Source of the DNA: a virus
IMG/VR virus record: IMGVR_UViG_3300010883_027301
Location: 1-44,901 of that record
Reading direction: 5' to 3' (one strand)
Length of the DNA stretch: 44,901 nucleotides
The notes under the pieces are model-generated. The model was not told the DNA's origin. It did not search any database and was given only the letters and a program-made list of their open reading frames with translations. Made by a program: the position numbers and the translations under genes. How positions within the stretch are numbered: the first letter of the stretch is position 1; each line of letters begins with the position of its first letter. This document shows positions 24,349 through 37,897 of the stretch, piece by piece.

Positions 24349-24581
24349 AAGTTGGTTCCCTTATAGTTTTCGAACAAGAATCTCAAGGATATGATTTTAT
24401 CCAAAATCAGGGAGACCTTTTTAATAATGAATTAGTTAGAATAACCACTGGAACGTGTGGCATAGTTTGTAAAATACAAGAACATCCAGATATGCACATT
24501 AGATTAGCAGAAATGTTGATCGGAAACAAGCTTATATTTGATATTAACTTGAATCAGCTCGAATACAAACTTCTAAATTAA
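24345..24581 (+). CDS. Small beta-barrel-like protein, unknown function
   Basis: 78 residues. It begins MKVGSLIVFEQ and contains TGTCGIVCKIQ and NKLIFDINLNQLEY. This order fits the small SH3-like proteins common in large phages (a G-x-[LI]-[IV] strand, a GIV strand and a final LE strand). It overlaps the J-domain gene by 4 bases (ATGA). Its stop codon is interlocked with the stop of the minus-strand gene at 24578. Confidence 0.5.
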   Translation: MKVGSLIVFEQESQGYDFIQNQGDLFNNELVRITTGTCGIVCKIQEHPDMHIRLAEMLIGNKLIFDINLNQLEYKLLN

Positions 24582-25312
24582 AAACATTCTCTAGCTAAAG
24601 AAACAGAGCCGTCAGAAGAAACTTGGAAAGTTCTTATTTTAACATGTGGATAGTAATCTTGGCATAAGTCTGCAACTGCGTTAATGTTTCCAGAGTTATC
24701 ATCATAAAAATAAACTTCTTCTGGATCGTGTTGATCTATGTAGGATTTCATTATTTTTGCTTTCGCACTTGGACTCCCTCCAGTATCTCCAGCTGTTTGA
24801 ATATTAGCTCCAGAAACACTCAATCCTTGCGATTGCAAAAATTTAGAAATATCTTCTTTGTTAGTAGGTTTTACAGAAGACCCCCTAAGTGAAGCTATAT
24901 TTTCATTTCCAGATCTTGCTGTTATGATCACCACTATTGCTCCTGGCACGCTTTGTGCACTTTTAGCAATATTTATTACACTTGAAATAGGAGAAGTTGA
25001 TTCTAGATTAACGCTTGCAGTTTCTGAAAAATCAAATATATCTTCTAAAGAATTAGAATTTAAATAGTCAGAATCTTCTCTAATTTTTTGTTCATAGCTA
25101 GCAAATTCTTCTGAAGAAAACCAAATTATTTCATTTTCCCCTCCCTTGTTTTCAATAGATTCAAAATCTAAAGAATTATCTAAGATCCAATCTATGAAAG
25201 AAGGATCAGTTTTTCCATCTGGAGTAATTCTTCTAACTCCAATGAGACTTTCAGTCACCGCGAGTGTATCATCAAAGTCAAAAGCAAATATTTTTTTAAT
25301 TTGTGAAGGCAT
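24578..25312 (-). CDS. HAD-superfamily phosphatase
   Basis: The only clearly real gene on the minus strand. FAFDFDDTLAVT holds motif I (D12, D14, T16). IVVIITARSGNENI is the motif II region, with a threonine in the ITAR context. YFYDDNSGNINAV holds the acidic motif IV. A cap-like insertion lies between about residues 25 and 115. This set fits phage HAD proteins that dephosphorylate nucleotides, DNA ends or small metabolites. It meets the gene at 24345 tail to tail with stop codons overlapping at TTAA (24578-24581). The substrate cannot be read from sequence. Confidence 0.75.
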   Translation of the reverse strand: MPSQIKKIFAFDFDDTLAVTESLIGVRRITPDGKTDPSFIDWILDNSLDFESIENKGGENEIIWFSSEEFASYEQKIREDSDYLNSNSLEDIFDFSETASVNLESTSPISSVINIAKSAQSVPGAIVVIITARSGNENIASLRGSSVKPTNKEDISKFLQSQGLSVSGANIQTAGDTGGSPSAKAKIMKSYIDQHDPEEVYFYDDNSGNINAVADLCQDYYPHVKIRTFQVSSDGSVSLARECF

Positions 25313-29364: not shown

Positions 29365-30213
29365 ATGAATACACGGTACAAAAATTTAAATCAAGCTTTT
29401 GTAGAAGAATTAGCTGATTGTTGCTATAATGGAGTAGAGGTAAAAAGTCGGGGCTTTGTTCAAAAAGAAAAACTTTTTGCTTCTTTCATCATTCAAGATC
29501 CAACCGACTTGAGAATCGAAGTTCCAGCTCGAAAATTTAATGAAGAATATGCAATTCTTGAATGGCTTTGGTATTTGACTTCTGATTCTAAAATTGAAAC
29601 TATAGGTAAATTTGCTGATATTTGGAATAAAATATCAGATGATAATGATACAGTAGAATCTAATTACGGAAAATATTTAAAGCCTCACTGGTATGATTTA
29701 GTTGATGAGCTTTTAAAAGATAGAGATACTCGTCGTGCTACGTGCGTAATAAATCAACCATATCATAGGTTCAAGAATCCGAAAGATTATCCATGCACAC
29801 ACTATATTCACTTCTTTATTAGAGAAGATGCTCTTCACATGGGCGTATATATGCGGTCTAATGATGCCGTTTTTGGATTTTGCAATGATGTTTTTACTTT
29901 TGCATTATTCCAACAACTGATGTTAAATGAACTAAATGCTCGCGGCTCTAATCTTACACTAGGAAACTATTATCACTCTGCAGGCAGCTTCCATGTTTAT
30001 GATAGGCATTATGCAATGATGGAAAAAATATCTGAAAATTATTTTAAGAAAGCTAGAAAAAGTGGTTATCCTACCAACTTGAAAAAAGTGGTTTTAGATC
30101 CGGATTTAACGTGGCCAAAAATGGAAAACTTTATATCTTTTTTTAACGAAGAATTAGACAAAGAAGAAGTTTTGAATAAGATTAAGAAGATAAAAGAGGT
30201 TATATTCAAGTGA
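29365..30213 (+). CDS. Thymidylate synthase-family enzyme resembling T4 dCMP hydroxymethylase (gp42)
   Basis: Residues DTRRATC (121-127), YPCTHYIHF with C144, YMRSNDAVFGFCND (162-175) and GSFHVYDRHY match the ThyA fold. The nucleophile is C144. At the position that is Asn in thymidylate synthase (selecting dUMP), this protein has Asp (D175 in FGFCND). T4 gp42 has the same context (FGFRND, D179), which selects dCMP. The protein is therefore better read as a dCMP hydroxymethylase or other dCMP-specific methylene transferase than as ThyA. If so, phage DNA may contain hydroxymethylcytosine or a derivative. It opens a run of nucleotide-metabolism and modification genes. Confidence 0.78.
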   Translation: MNTRYKNLNQAFVEELADCCYNGVEVKSRGFVQKEKLFASFIIQDPTDLRIEVPARKFNEEYAILEWLWYLTSDSKIETIGKFADIWNKISDDNDTVESNYGKYLKPHWYDLVDELLKDRDTRRATCVINQPYHRFKNPKDYPCTHYIHFFIREDALHMGVYMRSNDAVFGFCNDVFTFALFQQLMLNELNARGSNLTLGNYYHSAGSFHVYDRHYAMMEKISENYFKKARKSGYPTNLKKVVLDPDLTWPKMENFISFFNEELDKEEVLNKIKKIKEVIFK

Positions 30214-30491
30214 ATATTTTAGAAAAAGCTAATGAAATAATCAACAGTCGCTCTGAAGAAAAAGAGAGGCAGTATGGTCCAATGGGCGAAGGCTTAGAAC
30301 GCGCTGCTCTAATAGCTTCTGGAATGACTGGAAAAGACTTTACTGCAGATGATATTTTTGCTACTTTAGTAGCTCTTAAATTTTCTCGTCACTCTTACAA
30401 TTACAAAGAAGATAACTTTTTAGATGCTGCCGCTTATTTGGGGGCATGGAATGATTACGTACAGGAGAAATTGAAAAGTGAAAATAAGTAA
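30210..30491 (+). CDS. MazG-like / DUF6378-like nucleotide pyrophosphohydrolase candidate
   Basis: GTG start, overlapping the upstream gene by 4 bases. The 93-residue helical protein has EKERQYGPMGEG, ATLVALKFSRHSYNYKEDNFLDAAAYLGAWNDY. This ERQYG, LK-x-x-R and KEDN-x-x-D pattern is that of short MazG-like phage proteins, which bind metal and hydrolyse nucleoside triphosphates. Placement between a dCMP hydroxymethylase-like gene and dUTPase suggests nucleotide pool cleaning, for example removal of unmodified dCTP. Substrate is not known. Confidence 0.6.
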   Translation: MNILEKANEIINSRSEEKERQYGPMGEGLERAALIASGMTGKDFTADDIFATLVALKFSRHSYNYKEDNFLDAAAYLGAWNDYVQEKLKSENK

Positions 30492-30912
30492 AGTTAGAAA
30501 AGTTAAAACGCCTGTTCGCGGAACTCCAGAATCAGCTGGAATAGATTTTTTTGTTCCCAGTGGTGTTCAAGCAAAACTAAAGCCTGGAGATTCTTGTTTA
30601 CTACCAAGCGGAATTAAAGTTGATGTCCCTTCTGGCCACGCTCTAATAGCTTTTAATAAAAGCGGAGTAGCAGTTAAGAAAAGTCTTTATGCTGGCGCTT
30701 GCGTAGTAGACGAAGACTATCAGGGAGAAATTCACATCAATCTTACTAATGTGGGTTGTGAAGAAGTTGAAATAAGTTCAGGTGAAAAAATAATTCAGTT
30801 TATTTTACTTCCCGTTTTTTATGACACAATTGAAGAAGTAGAGCTAGAAAATCTTTATGCAGAAGTAACTGCTAGAGGCGAAGGCGGCTTTGGTAGTACG
30901 GGAGTAGAATAA
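30478..30912 (+). CDS. dut: dUTP diphosphatase (trimeric type)
   Basis: GTG start with AGGAG 10 bases upstream, overlapping the previous gene by 14 bases. The dUTPase motifs are in order: PESAGIDFF (motif 1), AFNKSGVAVKK (motif 2), AGACVVDEDYQGEIHINLTN (motif 3), EKIIQFILLPV (motif 4) and GEGGFGSTG (motif 5, C-terminal arm). At 144 residues it is full length. It turns dUTP into dUMP, keeping uracil out of DNA and feeding thymidylate synthesis. It fits the neighbouring deaminase and kinase genes. Confidence 0.92.
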   Translation: MKISKVRKVKTPVRGTPESAGIDFFVPSGVQAKLKPGDSCLLPSGIKVDVPSGHALIAFNKSGVAVKKSLYAGACVVDEDYQGEIHINLTNVGCEEVEISSGEKIIQFILLPVFYDTIEEVELENLYAEVTARGEGGFGSTGVE

Positions 30913-31976
30913 TGAACTATTTTATAGATTGCAATGTTCCTAAAAACTTTAAAATTGGAATTGATGGATTAGAAAGAAATGTGCCGGCTAGAAAACATAG
31001 TCATAATGCAGCTTGGGTTCATCTTTATAAAAATATGCTTCAGTCGGCTGGTTGGGAAGATGTTCATATCCTTAGCAACCACGACACTTATGCAGGTTAT
31101 GATGCAATGATTTTTTATCCCGGTATTGCTTATGCTGGAACAATTAACTTCTTTTTTGGTGCCGATGATAATGTTGTACGTCGATTTTCTAGAATTCAAG
31201 ATTTCAAAGGCCCAACGTTCATTTTAAATCATGATATGCCGCTTATAGGAACTACAATAAAAGGTCGCCTCCATAATAAATCTACTAGCTCTAAAGTTGG
31301 AAATTTAAAATTAGAAATTCTTGATGATATTTGCAAAAGCACCACAAGGATAGATTGCGTAGAAAAATCTACTAAATTGTGCTTCGGAGATAGCCACTGC
31401 TTTTCTACATATTTGCCAGGATATTCAGTTTGCCGAAATGATGGCTTGACGCTATATTCAACTTTAAGAGATGGAGTAAAGCAAATTATAGAAGATAATT
31501 CTGAAATGCTGGTGAAAAATTTAACTCATCTTACTTTTTATATGGGAAATATTGATATTCGCCATCATTTAATGAGACAAGAAAAACCAAATGACCAACT
31601 CCGCGGAATGGCCATTGAATTAGGCGAACAACTTAAATCTTTAAATATTTCTAATATTGAAATAGTGCATGCTTTGCCTATAGAAAATGAAAGTAGGAAA
31701 CTTCCAAAAACTGGATATTTTAAAGGTACTCCATTTTATGGCACTAAAGAAGAAAGATCAAGTCTTGTCAATACATTCAACACTGAAGTTGATAGAATTT
31801 GTATAGAAAATGGTTGGTCTGTTTTTAAGTGGCCAAAAGAATTCCTCAATGAAGAAGATGAGCTTGATTTTGAATATATGGAAAGGCCAAAAAGCGTTCA
31901 TTTAAGTCCCACTTCTTATCGATGGGATCTTTTTAATAATAGTTTGAATATAAAACACAAAAATAACGGAGAATAA
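30912..31976 (+). CDS. SGNH/GDSL-like hydrolase
   Basis: The ATG overlaps the dut stop by 1 base. The N-terminal 150 residues form an alpha/beta segment. Then CFGDSHCFST (GDSH at 159-162) gives the block I serine, YMGNIDIRHHL resembles block III with Gly and Asn, and the final PKSVHLSPTSYRW provides the block V histidine. These fit an SGNH esterase or acyltransferase fold. Similar proteins with a GDSH motif are seen in glycan and modification clusters of large phages. The substrate is not predictable. The next gene starts 1 base after the stop. Confidence 0.6.
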   Translation: MNYFIDCNVPKNFKIGIDGLERNVPARKHSHNAAWVHLYKNMLQSAGWEDVHILSNHDTYAGYDAMIFYPGIAYAGTINFFFGADDNVVRRFSRIQDFKGPTFILNHDMPLIGTTIKGRLHNKSTSSKVGNLKLEILDDICKSTTRIDCVEKSTKLCFGDSHCFSTYLPGYSVCRNDGLTLYSTLRDGVKQIIEDNSEMLVKNLTHLTFYMGNIDIRHHLMRQEKPNDQLRGMAIELGEQLKSLNISNIEIVHALPIENESRKLPKTGYFKGTPFYGTKEERSSLVNTFNTEVDRICIENGWSVFKWPKEFLNEEDELDFEYMERPKSVHLSPTSYRWDLFNNSLNIKHKNNGE

Positions 31977-31977
31977 T

Positions 31978-33168
31978 GTGTCTAAAAATAAATCAATCAG
32001 AGTAGCAATAGTTGGAGTTGGCAATTGCGCTAATTCTTTCTATCAAGGACTAACATATTACGCTGGATATACAGCAGGACAAGAACGCGACGGAATTATG
32101 AAAAGTCGAATTGGAGGTTATTCAGTCGCAGATCTTAAAGTGGTCGCAGCTTTTGATGTTGATAAAAGAAAAGTTGGAAAATGCTTTAGAGAAGCAATGA
32201 GAGCAAAACCTAATTGCACTCCGACTTATGAGCAAAACGTTCCCGACGGCCCGATTGTTCAAATGGGTCCAATTATGGACGGTGTTCCATCTCTTATGAG
32301 AGATTATCCAGATGATGAAGCTTTTCGTGTGGCAGATTTAGAGCCCGTAGATGTAACTCAGATTCTTATTGATGAGCAAGTTGATATTCTAATCAACTAC
32401 TTACCAGTAGGTTCTCAGAAAGCCACTGAGTACTATGCTGAAGCTTGCTTAGACGCTAGAGTTTCTCTTTTGAACTGTATTCCAGTTTTTATTGCATCTA
32501 ATCCTAAATGGGAGCAGCGTTTTATTGATGCTGGAATTCCATTAATTGGCGATGATATGAAATCTCAATTTGGGGCTTCTATTCTTTCTCAAATGCTCCA
32601 AGAGCTTGCATTTGCTCGTGGATTAAACGTCAATGCGCATATTCAACGTAACGTTGGAGGGAATACAGACTTTTTGAATATGGTTGATCAATCAAGGTTA
32701 AAGTATAAGAAGGTTTCAAAGGAAAATGTAATTCGCTCTCAACACATTATTAGAGGCGTGGATCCAGAAGAATCTTTCTTGCACGCTGGACCGTCTGAAT
32801 ATATTCGTTATTACAAAGATAATAAAGTTGCAAATTTTCGAATTGAAATGGAGGGATTTCTTGGAGCTCCAGTTATTTTAGATGCTCAACTTTCAGTAAT
32901 TGATTCACCAAACTCCGGTGGTGTTGTTATAGATGCAGCGAGATATTTGAAAGTTGCTAGAGAAATGGGAATAGTTGGAGCGCTTAGAGGACCGTCAGCA
33001 TTTACTCAAAAGACACCACCCCAACAACTCATGTTTTCAGAAACTCTTTATGAGTGTGATGCTCTTTCTGAAAGAAAGCTTACAAGATTTACTCGCAGGC
33101 AAACTGAAAAATATAGCGCTAAAGAACTGTACAGCGCGTGTCCAGCTGGAAATAAGGAAATTGACTAA
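31978..33168 (+). CDS. ino1: myo-Inositol-1-phosphate (inositol-3-phosphate) synthase
   Basis: GTG start with GGAG upstream. VAIVGVGNCANS (10-20) is the NAD-binding Rossmann loop. GDDMKSQFGA (191-200) and QRNVGGNTDFLNM further on are diagnostic for inositol-phosphate synthase, the latter containing conserved Asn and Asp around the active site. At 396 residues it matches the short bacterial/archaeal form rather than the 500-residue eukaryotic one. It converts glucose-6-phosphate to inositol phosphate with NAD. It lies among sugar and DNA-modification genes. A role in making an inositol-derived precursor, for DNA or surface glycan or for phospholipid, is inference. Presence in a phage is unusual. 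Confidence 0.88.
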   Translation: MSKNKSIRVAIVGVGNCANSFYQGLTYYAGYTAGQERDGIMKSRIGGYSVADLKVVAAFDVDKRKVGKCFREAMRAKPNCTPTYEQNVPDGPIVQMGPIMDGVPSLMRDYPDDEAFRVADLEPVDVTQILIDEQVDILINYLPVGSQKATEYYAEACLDARVSLLNCIPVFIASNPKWEQRFIDAGIPLIGDDMKSQFGASILSQMLQELAFARGLNVNAHIQRNVGGNTDFLNMVDQSRLKYKKVSKENVIRSQHIIRGVDPEESFLHAGPSEYIRYYKDNKVANFRIEMEGFLGAPVILDAQLSVIDSPNSGGVVIDAARYLKVAREMGIVGALRGPSAFTQKTPPQQLMFSETLYECDALSERKLTRFTRRQTEKYSAKELYSACPAGNKEID

Positions 33169-33884
33169 TGGCAAAACTGCACGACCAAAAAGGGAAACTT
33201 TTTAATCCAGATTCTGGAAATTTTGAAGAGTGTGTAATAAAGTTTAATGGTAGAAATGGCTTTTGGTACCGACCAGGCACTTTTGACTTAAATTCTATAA
33301 GGGAATGCAGAGACAATTATAGCGATATTGACACATGCGGAAAAACAGTTTTAGACTTAGGAGCTAATATAGGGGGGTTTTCAAAAATGGCGCTACAAAA
33401 AGGAGCTAAGAAATTAATAGCTTTAGAGCCATGTCCTTATAATTTTCAAATTCTAGAAATTAATGCTCCAAACGCAGAATGTTTTAATGCCGCAGTTTGT
33501 GAAAGCGAATTAGAAGAAGTGGTTTTTCATTACGCTGGATCTAAAAGAAACTCTGTTTCTTCTTCTACGCTTAAACGAAGAAATGCTTCTGGCGTCTCTA
33601 TTTCTGTTCCAGGTCTCTCTTTTTCAGGTCTTTTAGAAAAATACAAGCCAGAAATACTAAAGATAGATATTGAAGGAAAAGAGTACGATATTTTAGATTC
33701 TATTGATAAAATTCCAGACTTTGTAGAAATAGTGGGAATTGAATTTCATAATACTCGTAAACCCTACTCAGAATATCCGCTTCGTTTTTTTCCAGAGGCA
33801 GATTGGAAAAAAGTAGAGCACCCAATTCTAATGTTCGGCCAAAAGAAAGTCTTAGACTACACTTTTTATCGCAAACATATCTAA
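33168..33884 (+). CDS. FkbM-family SAM methyltransferase
   Basis: VLDLGANIGGFS is the SAM-binding motif I, and LIALEPCPYNFQILEIN supplies the acidic residue of the next strand. LKIDIEGKEYDIL and VGIEFHN are the conserved FkbM segments. At 238 residues it is typical. Members O-methylate sugars and other small molecules. ATG overlaps the stop of the inositol synthase gene by 1 base, so the two are probably made together. The natural acceptor is unknown; inositol or a DNA-linked sugar would fit the context. Confidence 0.8.
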   Translation: MAKLHDQKGKLFNPDSGNFEECVIKFNGRNGFWYRPGTFDLNSIRECRDNYSDIDTCGKTVLDLGANIGGFSKMALQKGAKKLIALEPCPYNFQILEINAPNAECFNAAVCESELEEVVFHYAGSKRNSVSSSTLKRRNASGVSISVPGLSFSGLLEKYKPEILKIDIEGKEYDILDSIDKIPDFVEIVGIEFHNTRKPYSEYPLRFFPEADWKKVEHPILMFGQKKVLDYTFYRKHI

Positions 33885-33893
33885 GGAGGACAA

Positions 33894-34310
33894 GTGACAG
33901 TAAACGCTTTTGATATTGATGGAGTAATCCATTTGGGAGATGGAGTCTGCGGAATTCATCCTGGGCCTAGCGATGTGATAATCACTGGCCGAAGTTTTGA
34001 AGAAGAGGCTGAGACCCTAGCTTTTCTCCACAGAAATGGAATTCATAATCCAGTATTTTTTAATCAGTGCCACTATGAAGACAAGACACGCAAAAGCTCT
34101 GGTTGGCATAAAGGAGAAACTATTAAATTGCTCCATCGAGCTGGATTGAGTATTCAATATTTTTTTGAAGACGATGAAGTTCAAAAATCTGAAATTGAAA
34201 GAAAGTTAGAGGAAGTTTCGGTTTGGAATATCGGCACTAAAGTAATTCATGTCAATAATCCGAACGTTAAAAAAGAGAACCGTCGCCATTTAGAGGATTT
34301 AGATGAGTAG
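33894..34310 (+). CDS. Small HAD-like phosphatase
   Basis: GTG start with a strong AAGGAGG site. AFDIDGVIHLG holds the DxDGV motif I (D7, D9). SDVIITGRSF is the motif II region and YFFEDDEVQ resembles the acidic C-terminal motif. At 138 residues it lacks a cap domain. It is likely to dephosphorylate a small metabolite. Lying two genes after inositol-phosphate synthase, it could supply the inositol monophosphatase step, but that is inference. Confidence 0.65.
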   Translation: MTVNAFDIDGVIHLGDGVCGIHPGPSDVIITGRSFEEEAETLAFLHRNGIHNPVFFNQCHYEDKTRKSSGWHKGETIKLLHRAGLSIQYFFEDDEVQKSEIERKLEEVSVWNIGTKVIHVNNPNVKKENRRHLEDLDE

Positions 34311-35748
34311 TTCTGAACTTCTTAAGATGACTGATAAACAACTGTTCGATGAGATTCCTTCTCACAAAAAGCAGGACTTTGTAGATTTTATAAAAGAGCT
34401 TAATCGAAGAGAGTATCTAGTAAGGTTTGCAAAATCGTGCACTTTTGAAACATTTCAGCATTTGCCTAACGAATCTTTAAAGTTTGGTAGTGGATTTATC
34501 GTAAATGGAAAATCAGTACCTTATTTCCACCCTAATCGTAGTTTTCATGACGAGATTATTTGGTTGAATGAGAACCTATTTTATAATCCCCAAGCGACAT
34601 TTGAAGATAAGCTTATTAATGCAGCTATCATTAAATTCTATGGCCCATCTAACACTCTTAAGCTTATATCTGCTAACACAGGAAAGAATTTTGTAGACTA
34701 TAAGAAGTTTATTAGTAGTCCAAAGTATCTAAAGAAGATTTGTGTAAATCTAGAAACTGCTGTTAAAAATAAAGAAAAAATTTATGGCACAACTGAACTT
34801 AGAACAAGCCTTCAAACGGCAGCTAGAAATTATGCTAGAGATGTTGGATCTCCAATAGACAAAATTGAATTAATTTCGAAAGCTGATAGAAAAGTTCGAA
34901 CATGCCGCTCTTCTGATATTTTGTTTTGGTTTACTAAAATAGGTCCAGATTTTGTTAATTTTTATAAGCAAACTCCAAATATGGAAGAGTCTTTTAATTT
35001 TCTAAATTCTTTTAGAGGGATTGGAAATTATTATGGTTATCACTTTAGTTGTAACTTAGCTCGCATGCCAGAAGTTGGAAACTTGATATTTCAAGGCTCG
35101 CCCGGCCGTATTAACGAAGACGATGAATATGTTGTCCCGGGCGTCGGCGCGATGGCTGCCATAAATTGGTTTTATGAGCATCGAGGGCATTCTATAAACA
35201 CTAAAGTCGGAAAAAAATTAATAAATGCTATTAGAAAGCATCAAAATAGTTTCTTTGATTTAAAAAAATCAGATAATTCTAAATTTTATATGGAAAAAGT
35301 TTCTGAACTTGGATATTTTACTAATTTTGGTTGTGAAATATCTTGCTGCCAGTTCGGAGTTTATCGAAGATTAAGAGAAGATAAAAAATTAGCTTTAAGA
35401 AGAGCAGCTGCACCAATTTCAAAAGAGGAAGTCAAAATGATTCTTACACCCAAAACATTAATGCAAAAATTAGGGCTTATTTCAGAAGATAAGCCAATCA
35501 AAAAAGAACTAGAAATTAAGTCTCCAACACTAGATTTTTCTTCTACTAGTAAAGAAGATTTAATTCTTAATATTGTAGATCAGTCTGGCGAGGCATGTTC
35601 TCATTCATTAGTCGCTAAGCTAATTGAAGAAAAAGGATATACTCAATACAAACAAGAGGGATCTTGGAAAGAGAGTTGGGTTATAATGAGAGACCTTGTT
35701 GAAAAGGGTGCTTTAGTAAAAGACGGAAAGTTTTACCGGAGGCCGTAA
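34303..35748 (+). CDS. Protein resembling AADT / alpha-glutamyl-putrescinyl-thymine pyrophosphorylase-like helical fold
   Basis: The 481-residue protein has a long helical N-terminal part. Its core SFRGIGNYYGYHFSCNLAR (about 236-254) and NEDDEYVVPGVGAMAAINW (271-289) match, by eye, the GIG helix-hairpin-helix and GPGA-type motifs of the DNA glycosylase-like families described in hypermodified phages. Those families include amino-acid:DNA transferase and alpha-glutamyl/putrescinyl thymine pyrophosphorylase. A C-terminal winged-helix-like segment (about 415-481) follows. ATG overlaps the HAD gene by 8 bases and its stop overlaps the next start by 1 base. This is a best guess from remembered motifs. 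An unrelated HhH nucleic-acid protein remains possible. Confidence 0.55.
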   Translation: MSSSELLKMTDKQLFDEIPSHKKQDFVDFIKELNRREYLVRFAKSCTFETFQHLPNESLKFGSGFIVNGKSVPYFHPNRSFHDEIIWLNENLFYNPQATFEDKLINAAIIKFYGPSNTLKLISANTGKNFVDYKKFISSPKYLKKICVNLETAVKNKEKIYGTTELRTSLQTAARNYARDVGSPIDKIELISKADRKVRTCRSSDILFWFTKIGPDFVNFYKQTPNMEESFNFLNSFRGIGNYYGYHFSCNLARMPEVGNLIFQGSPGRINEDDEYVVPGVGAMAAINWFYEHRGHSINTKVGKKLINAIRKHQNSFFDLKKSDNSKFYMEKVSELGYFTNFGCEISCCQFGVYRRLREDKKLALRRAAAPISKEEVKMILTPKTLMQKLGLISEDKPIKKELEIKSPTLDFSSTSKEDLILNIVDQSGEACSHSLVAKLIEEKGYTQYKQEGSWKESWVIMRDLVEKGALVKDGKFYRRP

Positions 35749-36926
35749 TGCCAGAAGTTAAATGGGGAACTATTATCCCTCTTATTGGTGGCAGTGCTAT
35801 AGGATGTTCTCAAGCGACTAAAAATAGACCAAAGTTTCATCTTAGCTACTCTGCTTTTTCTGCAAATGAAAAATATCTTACAGATTACTGGAAAGATGTT
35901 CCTCGCATTGTTTTAGATGAGGGCGGAAAAATTCCAAATGAAGAAATAGATTTCATAAACTCTGTATGTCCTTGCGCTGGATTAAGCCAGTTAAGTACTT
36001 CACGCAGTATAGAAAAGAGAGAAGAGCAAAACTATTGGATGTATGAATCTTCTAATAGAATTCTAGGCGATGTTCGCCCAAAAGTTTACTGGGGCGAAAA
36101 TGCTCCCGGCCTTTTTACTAATTCAGGCGCGTACGTAAGAGATAAATTAAAGGATCTTGCTCTTAAATACGGGTATACTTTTTCTCTATATAAAACAGAT
36201 ACGCAGAGACATGGTATACCACAGCGCAGAGTTAGAACTTTCTATTTTTTTTGGAGAGATACCAATCCGCCCTTGCTAAACTACTTTAATCAGCCAATGC
36301 CAACTTTTGCTGACTATATTAAAGAGATACCAAGCTCAGCATCTCTACAAGACAAGTTTAATATAGAGGGTAAAATTTCTGATAACTTTGATTCTTATGC
36401 TTTTATTTTGCAGCGCTTAAATATTGACCATAATTCTTTTGTTAAGAACAATGATGGCGGATCAATACACTCAGTTTATTCTTATCTAGCAGAAAACAAT
36501 ATTCTAAAAGAGTGTATTGAGTGGATTGAAAAAAATAAGCTAGAAGAAACTGCTGAGCATAGAAGGCTTAAGTCAATTTATAAAAAAGTTCAGTCAGGCG
36601 GCCGGTTTATGGATGCTTCTCCTGGATATTATTATCGTAGAACTAATGCAATAGTGGGTAGAACTTTAACCCATCTTATTCATCCAACAGAAGATCGTGG
36701 TATGTCTATTAGAGAACTTCTTCACATGATGGGACTACCACATGATTTTGAAATGAGCGATAGGAAATCTTTAAATGCAATTGCTCAAAATGTTCCAACA
36801 TGTACAGCTCGAGATATGGCTAGTCAAGTTATTGAATATTTAAACAACGACTTACAAATTGCAGAAAATAGTTTTTTAATGCAAAATAACCTAAAAGAGG
36901 AAATTACATTATGCGAGCGCTTGTAA
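35748..36926 (+). CDS. Cytosine-C5-methyltransferase-like protein
   Basis: The motifs are in family order. A motif I-like segment PLIGGSAIGCSQA lies at about 11-23. VCPCAGLS has catalytic-type P75-C76. ENAPGLF is motif VI. QRHGIPQRRVRTF is motif VIII. SIRELLHMMGLPHDF and IAQNVPTCTARDMASQV are motifs IX and X. The catalytic Cys and the QRxxR residues are present, so it may be active. The target-recognition region between motifs VIII and IX is about 130 residues. It overlaps the gene upstream by 1 base and the epimerase by 16. It may modify DNA cytosine. If the phage DNA carries hydroxymethylcytosine, its role needs a different explanation. Confidence 0.7.
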   Translation: MPEVKWGTIIPLIGGSAIGCSQATKNRPKFHLSYSAFSANEKYLTDYWKDVPRIVLDEGGKIPNEEIDFINSVCPCAGLSQLSTSRSIEKREEQNYWMYESSNRILGDVRPKVYWGENAPGLFTNSGAYVRDKLKDLALKYGYTFSLYKTDTQRHGIPQRRVRTFYFFWRDTNPPLLNYFNQPMPTFADYIKEIPSSASLQDKFNIEGKISDNFDSYAFILQRLNIDHNSFVKNNDGGSIHSVYSYLAENNILKECIEWIEKNKLEETAEHRRLKSIYKKVQSGGRFMDASPGYYYRRTNAIVGRTLTHLIHPTEDRGMSIRELLHMMGLPHDFEMSDRKSLNAIAQNVPTCTARDMASQVIEYLNNDLQIAENSFLMQNNLKEEITLCERL

Positions 36927-37897
36927 CAGGTGGATGCGGATTTATTGGATCGTGTCTTACAAAAAAATTAGTAGACTTAGGATGGGATGTTGAAATTGTT
37001 GATGATATGTCAAATGGAGATTATTCTTTTTTAGGTGATTATTCGTTTAGAACAATACCAGTTCAGCTTGGACATATTTACGATAGTCAAAATCTAAAAA
37101 AAGAAAGAGATATAACAATTCTAGTTGGAGATTTTGTAAGCAAAGAAATTATTCGTAGAATTATAGAAAAAAAATACGATATAATCTTTCACTTTGCAGC
37201 AAATCCAAGAGTAGAGTATTCTGTGCAAAACCCATTAGAAACCACTGATGAAAATTTGACAAAAACTATACGACTTTTTACCCATGCGGTTGGAAATGTT
37301 AAAAGAATAGTTTTTTCTTCTAGTTGTTCAATCTATGGTGATCCATGGACTCTCCCAACTACAGAAAATCATGGTAAAAATCCGAATAGCCCATATGCTC
37401 TTCAAAAACAATGCGTGGAAGAATACTCCAAGCTTTATTCTAAGATTTATGATTTAGACATAGCTTGTCTAAGATACTTTAACGTGTATGGACCTAATCA
37501 ATACGGGGACTCTCCATACTCTACAGCCATTGTTTCTTGGTGCGATAAAGTATCTAAAGGCCTTCCTTTAAGAAGTGACGGAGATGGCACGCAGTCTAGA
37601 GATATGGTATTTGTAGAAGACGTAGCTAGAGCTAATATATTAGCCGCCACTAGAGAAGAAAACTTTGGCGGAAAATGTATAAACATTGGAAGCGGAACTT
37701 CGTATACAAACAATCAAATTTTAGATATTTTTAAAAATAAATTTGGAAGTCTAGAAATAGTTCACGCTCCAGAAAGGCTTGGAGACGTAAAGCATACGCA
37801 AGCAGAAACTAGAGAAGCAAAAAATGCACTGGGATTTCAAACTGAGTATACTTTAGAAGAAGGATTGAAAAAGACGTTTTTATGGTGGGAGCTTTAA
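36911..37897 (+). CDS. NAD-dependent epimerase/dehydratase (extended SDR, GalE/RmlB-like)
   Basis: TGGCGFIG is the NAD-binding loop, FHFAANPRV the conserved strand, SSSCSIYGD carries the catalytic Ser and YALQK (162-166) the Tyr-Lys pair. RYFNVYGPNQ and RDMVFVEDVARA complete the extended SDR signature. At 328 residues it is full length. It acts on a nucleotide sugar, as epimerase or dehydratase, which supports sugar-based modification or glycan work in this gene block. AAGAGG precedes the ATG. Confidence 0.88.
   Translation: MRALVTGGCGFIGSCLTKKLVDLGWDVEIVDDMSNGDYSFLGDYSFRTIPVQLGHIYDSQNLKKERDITILVGDFVSKEIIRRIIEKKYDIIFHFAANPRVEYSVQNPLETTDENLTKTIRLFTHAVGNVKRIVFSSSCSIYGDPWTLPTTENHGKNPNSPYALQKQCVEEYSKLYSKIYDLDIACLRYFNVYGPNQYGDSPYSTAIVSWCDKVSKGLPLRSDGDGTQSRDMVFVEDVARANILAATREENFGGKCINIGSGTSYTNNQILDIFKNKFGSLEIVHAPERLGDVKHTQAETREAKNALGFQTEYTLEEGLKKTFLWWEL

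Follow-up and report, generated by a model that had tools for sequence, protein, structure and literature searches.

Genes of the Ino1 locus

We analysed a 44,901-nucleotide stretch of viral DNA (hereafter the window), to which a 293-kb contig is a close relative. The initial annotation had described a gene for inositol-phosphate synthase (Ino1) directly followed by genes for an FkbM methyltransferase and a HAD phosphatase, and both of these are indeed present (Table 1). A point absent from it is that the genes flanking Ino1 are DNA-modification genes. From position 30912 to 36926 the genes overlap or nearly touch and all lie on the plus strand, and Ino1 is therefore part of a tight operon. 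Members of the protein cluster to which the DUF6378 protein belongs were found in 56 of 83 loci. Close relatives of the window also have the C5-cytosine methyltransferase gene next to the cassette, and it occurs in 19 of 79 HMUDK_hel loci; in the window it accompanies a pathway predicted to yield hydroxymethylcytosine, a base in which C5 would no longer be free. Outside the operon, a lone minus-strand gene among plus-strand genes (24578-25312) gave a second polynucleotide-kinase-type (phrog_415) match.

Table 1. Genes of the cassette and its immediate surroundings, with the evidence for each assignment
Product	Position	Strand	Evidence and remarks
dCMP hydroxymethylase-type protein of the thymidylate-synthase family	29365..30213	+	PF00303; predicted to make 5-hydroxymethyl-dCMP
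DUF6378 protein, small, conserved, just upstream of the cassette	30210..30491	+	PF19905, 43.5 bits
dUTPase	30478..30912	+	TIGR00576, above cut-off
SGNH/GDSL-fold protein, part of the cassette core, with an additional alpha/beta domain at the N terminus	30912..31976	+	motifs, fold
Ino1, inositol-3-phosphate synthase	31978..33168	+	PF01658, 1gr0, phrog_33138
FkbM-family O-methyltransferase	33168..33884	+	PF05050, 50.8 bits (cut-off 22.7); TIGR01444, 79.3 (cut-off 37.7)
Small HAD phosphatase, polynucleotide-kinase-phosphatase-like	33894..34310	+	four HAD motifs; phrog_415
HMUDK_hel-domain protein with C-terminal winged helix	34303..35748	+	PF18723, 32.1 bits (cut-off 25)
C5-cytosine DNA methyltransferase homologue	35748..36926	+	PF00145, 70.9 bits
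Nucleotide-sugar epimerase family protein, adjacent to the cassette	36911..37897	+	PF01370, phrog_540

Ino1 and its phosphatase partner

The Ino1 gene encodes a complete short-form inositol-3-phosphate synthase of 396 aa with a GTG start. Its identity was confirmed by matches to PF01658 (76.7 bits, cut-off 27) and phrog_33138 (497 bits), and by an end-to-end alignment with M. tuberculosis Ino1 (1gr0; over residues 5-351, reaching 1gr0 residues 14-352; E 1e-87). The NAD motif is kept, and all three motifs cited in the initial annotation, GVGNCANS and GDDMKSQFGA among them, were found. The residues named as catalytic for the yeast, archaeal and rice enzymes (N350, G353, N354, D356, K369, K373, K412 and D438; PMC5614600) map to N225, G228, N229, D231, K244, K248, K283 and D309 of the window protein, respectively, which places them in an N-x-x-G-N-x-D block at 225-231 and a K-x-x-x-K pentapeptide (K244, K248), among others. 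All 82 phage Ino1 proteins share these residues without exception, and also K345, likely the fourth catalytic lysine. The initial annotation had made its call depend on a catalytic Lys/Asp set, and since all named residues are present and invariant, the call stands at the sequence level. Judged by these features, the enzyme probably makes inositol phosphate from glucose-6-phosphate. It thus resembles the bacterial short-form enzyme (M. tuberculosis Rv0046c, 1gr0, TIGR03450) in full-length alignment, NAD motif and catalytic residues, but it lies in a phage operon without mycothiol or phosphatidylinositol genes. Its score against the mycothiol-type equivalog TIGR03450 was 333.7 bits, far below the cut-off of 638, and a mycothiol role for the product gained no support.

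The small HAD protein keeps all four motifs of its family (DxDGV, ITGR, K and FEDD). Of 50,697 phage records, 18 contain its gene; these are precisely the 18 that contain Ino1, and they fall into two lineages. This strict co-occurrence strongly supports the prediction that the HAD protein dephosphorylates the Ino1 product. A search of 11 phage records for the classical inositol monophosphatase (IMPase, PF00459) found none, while all 14 controls were positive, and we propose that the HAD enzyme replaces it in these phages.

Conservation of Ino1 loci across phages

A search of IMG/VR with Ino1 gave at least 327 matches, and 80 loci were analysed by gene clustering; Ino1 genes are also annotated in Menderavirus and Caulobacter phage Cr30. 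A DNA-modification partner lies beside Ino1 at 81 of 82 phage loci, the sole exception stopping at a contig edge, but such locus counts overstate independence because the loci are related. Once similar sequences are thinned out, a DNA-modification partner is still present in 33 of the 34 phage Ino1 lineages. The partners in the 81 loci are SGNH together with HMUDK_hel (52), SGNH (14), the amino-acid:DNA transferase ADDT (10) and QueC (5). The reverse search, with HMUDK_hel as query, recovered Ino1 in 78 of 79 loci and HAD in 76 of 79 (within 8 kb). None of the cassette families was present in 39 viral loci (343 kb) drawn by random 15-mer, and none of the partner genes at 10 cellular Ino1 loci.

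The loci fall into three settings. Setting A (66 loci, including the window) has the slightly variable order SGNH-Ino1-(FkbM)-HAD-HMUDK_hel together with a dCMP hydroxymethylase. Setting B (10 loci, including Cr30) has ADDT-Ino1-HAD with a P-loop kinase family adjoining and, in several loci, a TET/JBP oxygenase. Setting C (5 loci, including Menderavirus) combines Ino1-HAD with the 7-deazaguanine genes QueC, FolE and QueE; QueC is found in Menderavirus and four metagenomic loci, FolE in most, and a TGT/DpdA-like gene in some. Ino1 and the small HAD are the only genes common to all three. On the Ino1 tree the settings switched several times, with the Mendera protein nesting in the setting-B group (support 100/97), which indicates that the donor unit moved between attachment systems. 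Two Ino1 genes from Bacteroidales MAGs (L083, L084) nest among the phage sequences on this tree and have no cassette partner within 6 kb; they are possibly prophage or phage contigs.

The hydroxymethylase and the predicted base

For the thymidylate-synthase (TS)-family protein upstream of the cassette, the best PDB matches were the CMP 5-hydroxymethylase MilA (88 bits) and T4 dCMP hydroxymethylase (70 bits), with thymidylate synthases scoring lower. At the position equivalent to E. coli residue 177 the protein has Asp, as does T4 gp42 (GFCND aligns with T4 GFRND), whereas TS and the SPO1 dUMP hydroxymethylase have Asn at this diagnostic position. The TS-family protein carries the dCMP-hydroxymethylase-type Asp in 7 of 7 setting-A contigs of at least 140 kb. 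As cytidylate hydroxymethylases are the closest solved relatives and the diagnostic Asp is present, the modified base in this phage is predicted to be 5-hydroxymethylcytosine. A dUMP-hydroxymethylase (hydroxymethyluracil) pathway was ruled out for the window by the same residue.

Candidate attachment proteins

The SGNH protein carries the motifs GDSHS, GNID and SVHLS, and its block I Ser (S161), block III Asn (N213) and block V His (H330) are invariant. The Asp of the DxxH motif is missing; three residues before H330 the window protein has K, and its relatives mostly have G. GDSL Pfam matches were weak and seen in 14 of 31 SGNH members. The AlphaFold model (pLDDT 88.5) matched sialate O-acetylesterases and other GDSL enzymes with Z 13 and rmsd 3-4 over ~170 aligned residues, and the sequence matches phrog_13881 and the N-terminal half of phrog_17781. 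The usual activity of SGNH proteins is that of an esterase or acyltransferase.

HMUDK_hel is the helical domain of 5-hmdU DNA kinases. Compared with viral models by Foldseek, the window protein matched the SP10 5-hmdU DNA kinase and ORF233c of Aeromonas phage 31; the comparison with PDB structures covered its winged helix (412-481). HMUDK_hel was the sole domain detected by sequence, no P-loop kinase domain being found in this ORF, and PF18751 was absent from the window and the setting-A contigs. The protein is predicted to be a DNA-base-modifying or base-presenting enzyme. Profiles of SGNH, HMUDK_hel and HAD, run against PDB sequences, returned chance matches or nothing. Homology between HMUDK_hel and ADDT was considered and dropped, as profile comparison gave no signal.

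In Aeromonas phages 31 and 44RR the SGNH and HMUDK_hel proteins are fused as one 795-residue chain, which argues that the two work together. Since the SGNH(+HMUDK_hel) protein is found in Aeromonas phages without Ino1, neither protein is inositol-specific. Among its carriers are phages in which gene 42 was reported present and glucosyltransferase genes absent (44RR, 31 and 25; Petrov et al. 2010, PMC2993671). In Aeromonas phage 31 (6184-10164) the fusion gene adjoins a gene for an SGLT-type sodium:solute symporter (vSGLT, 351 bits), which might import a hexose or the inositol that other phages make via Ino1. Aeromonas phage phiAS4 (4225-7497) has a UDP-galactopyranose mutase gene, an unknown 358-aa gene and then the SGNH gene, which may point to a galactofuranose-based variant of the system.

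Alternative roles of Ino1

In the reading that we favour, Ino1 makes the donor for hypermodification of phage DNA, and inositol from Ino1 and HAD would be joined to hydroxymethylated or deazaguanine bases; we put the probability of this reading at roughly 60%. The same role could be played by a different cyclitol, either an Ari2-like five-membered cyclitol phosphate or inositol that is later oxidised or aminated. Some Ino1 homologues, such as Ari2, can make other cyclitols, and Ari2 (6k96) is the second-best solved relative of the window protein. Moreover, some loci have a PLP cysteine-synthase-like gene between SGNH and Ino1 (L031, 9011-9889, and the same cluster elsewhere), which suggests that the appended group is altered further. 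However, the window protein scores 298 bits to M. tuberculosis Ino1 against 179 to Ari2, and every residue named for inositol synthesis is invariant, which makes this variant unlikely.

Alternatively, the inositol from Ino1 and HAD may go into glycans or lipids of the phage or the host surface, or into capsid decoration, with the DNA-modification neighbours explained by an early gene cluster. An FkbM methyltransferase and a nucleotide-sugar epimerase do lie close by, and in the Menderavirus study Ino1 appears among the bacteria-like genes, with no role assigned (PMC9025141). Yet the linkage spans three unrelated DNA-modification settings with no fixed glycan gene, and the absence of any virion-glycan gene among the conserved neighbours left the glycan-bound inositol raised in the initial annotation without support. 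The same applies to the lipid change it had considered: all 14 control genomes had a CDP-alcohol phosphatidyltransferase, and none of the 11 phage records did. With this enzyme and IMPase both missing from the 11 records, lipid or mycothiol use was rejected, and the broader surface or capsid role appears quite improbable. Least credible is that Ino1 is a metabolic drain or stress gene unrelated to its neighbours (using host glucose-6-phosphate, or making inositol as a compatible solute), roles that Ino1 does have in cells; this would leave the linkage to DNA-modification genes unexplained, and the strict pairing with one HAD phosphatase and these genes, together with the empty control loci, makes it very unlikely.

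Discussion

Taking gene identities, catalytic residues, the Asp-type hydroxymethylase and the conserved linkage from the sequences, we infer a hypermodification route, from enzyme activities and HAD substrate through the bond-making protein, product and linkage chemistry to the biological role. Ino1 would convert glucose-6-phosphate to inositol-1-phosphate (3-phosphate in other numbering), which the small HAD phosphatase would dephosphorylate to free inositol. The TS-family enzyme of this phage would supply 5-hydroxymethyl-dCMP for incorporation into DNA, and the HMUDK_hel and SGNH proteins, the only candidates for bond-making in setting A, would link inositol to the hydroxymethyl group of hydroxymethylcytosine. 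SGNH may alternatively acylate or de-acylate the appended group. The proposal that FkbM methylates the product is plausible and would apply to some phages, given that only about half of the loci have FkbM. Inositol would take the place of T4's glucose and may shield the DNA from host nucleases. In setting B the same Ino1-HAD pair would act with the TET/JBP oxygenase, kinase and amino-acid:DNA transferase on pyrimidines, and in setting C with QueC/DpdA-type deazaguanine enzymes, so that the base handle receiving inositol would be a hydroxymethyl (A), an oxidised methyl (B) or a deazaguanine side group (C). DNA-bound inositol, one of the options in the initial annotation, is thus the best supported by context (~80 loci and two cultured-phage groups), with the adduct itself a prediction. 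At slightly better than even odds, inositol or methyl-inositol is a natural DNA-base substituent, and a modular Ino1-HAD unit feeds three unrelated routes in many phages.

The route has parallels in known systems. T4-type hydroxymethylcytosine glucosylation (gp42, alpha/beta-gt) likewise has a diagnostic-Asp dCMP hydroxymethylase with donor-making genes adjoining, and the RB69-type arabinosylation set also holds a gene with a PNK-type phosphatase domain (PMC8056088). Unlike both, the window has a cyclitol synthase rather than a nucleotide-sugar route, with SGNH and HMUDK_hel instead; no glycosyltransferase family was recognised in the setting-A cassette. Thymidine hypermodification (SP10, phiW-14, ViI, M6) shares HMUDK_hel with the window and ADDT and the P-loop kinase with setting B, but the window HMUDK_hel lacks a kinase domain and the predicted base is cytosine, not uracil. 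We found no description of Ino1 and HAD in those systems. Phage 7-deazaguanine modification (FolE, QueC, QueE, DpdA) is shared with the setting-C phages and not with the window. The carboxymethylcytosine handle (CmoX/CmoY, PMC12783734) likewise sits on cytosine and is then elaborated further by phage enzymes; the window differs in the first enzyme and the appended group.

That a phage inositol-DNA link is unexplored, as the initial annotation stated, agrees with the literature found. No report linking inositol with phage DNA modification was retrieved, in a coverage that is incomplete and may have missed an earlier mention. Inositol is not mentioned in the MetaGPA paper (PMC8670742) or in the study of phage 7-deazaguanine by Hutinet et al. 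2019 (PMC6884629), and the Ino1 of Ps15 was given as bacteria-like, with no tie made to its deazaguanine cluster (PMC9025141). Inositol and a hexose add equal mass (+162.05 Da), and earlier "hexosylated" signals therefore cannot separate the two; where inositol on DNA was seen, it could have been mistaken for glucose.

The known hypermodifications of phage DNA are sugars, amino acids, polyamines or deazaguanine, and to our knowledge inositol decoration is not known on any DNA. If the proposed pathway is true, inositol would add a further chemical class to those found on DNA and be the first cyclitol known there, and the route would be common in environmental viruses, in keeping with the number of IMG/VR matches, and also present in cultured phages. 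Its enzymes might be put to use in adding hydroxyl-rich groups to DNA, and the inositol route would also be relevant to the Aeromonas-type hydroxymethylcytosine phages that lack glucosyltransferases.
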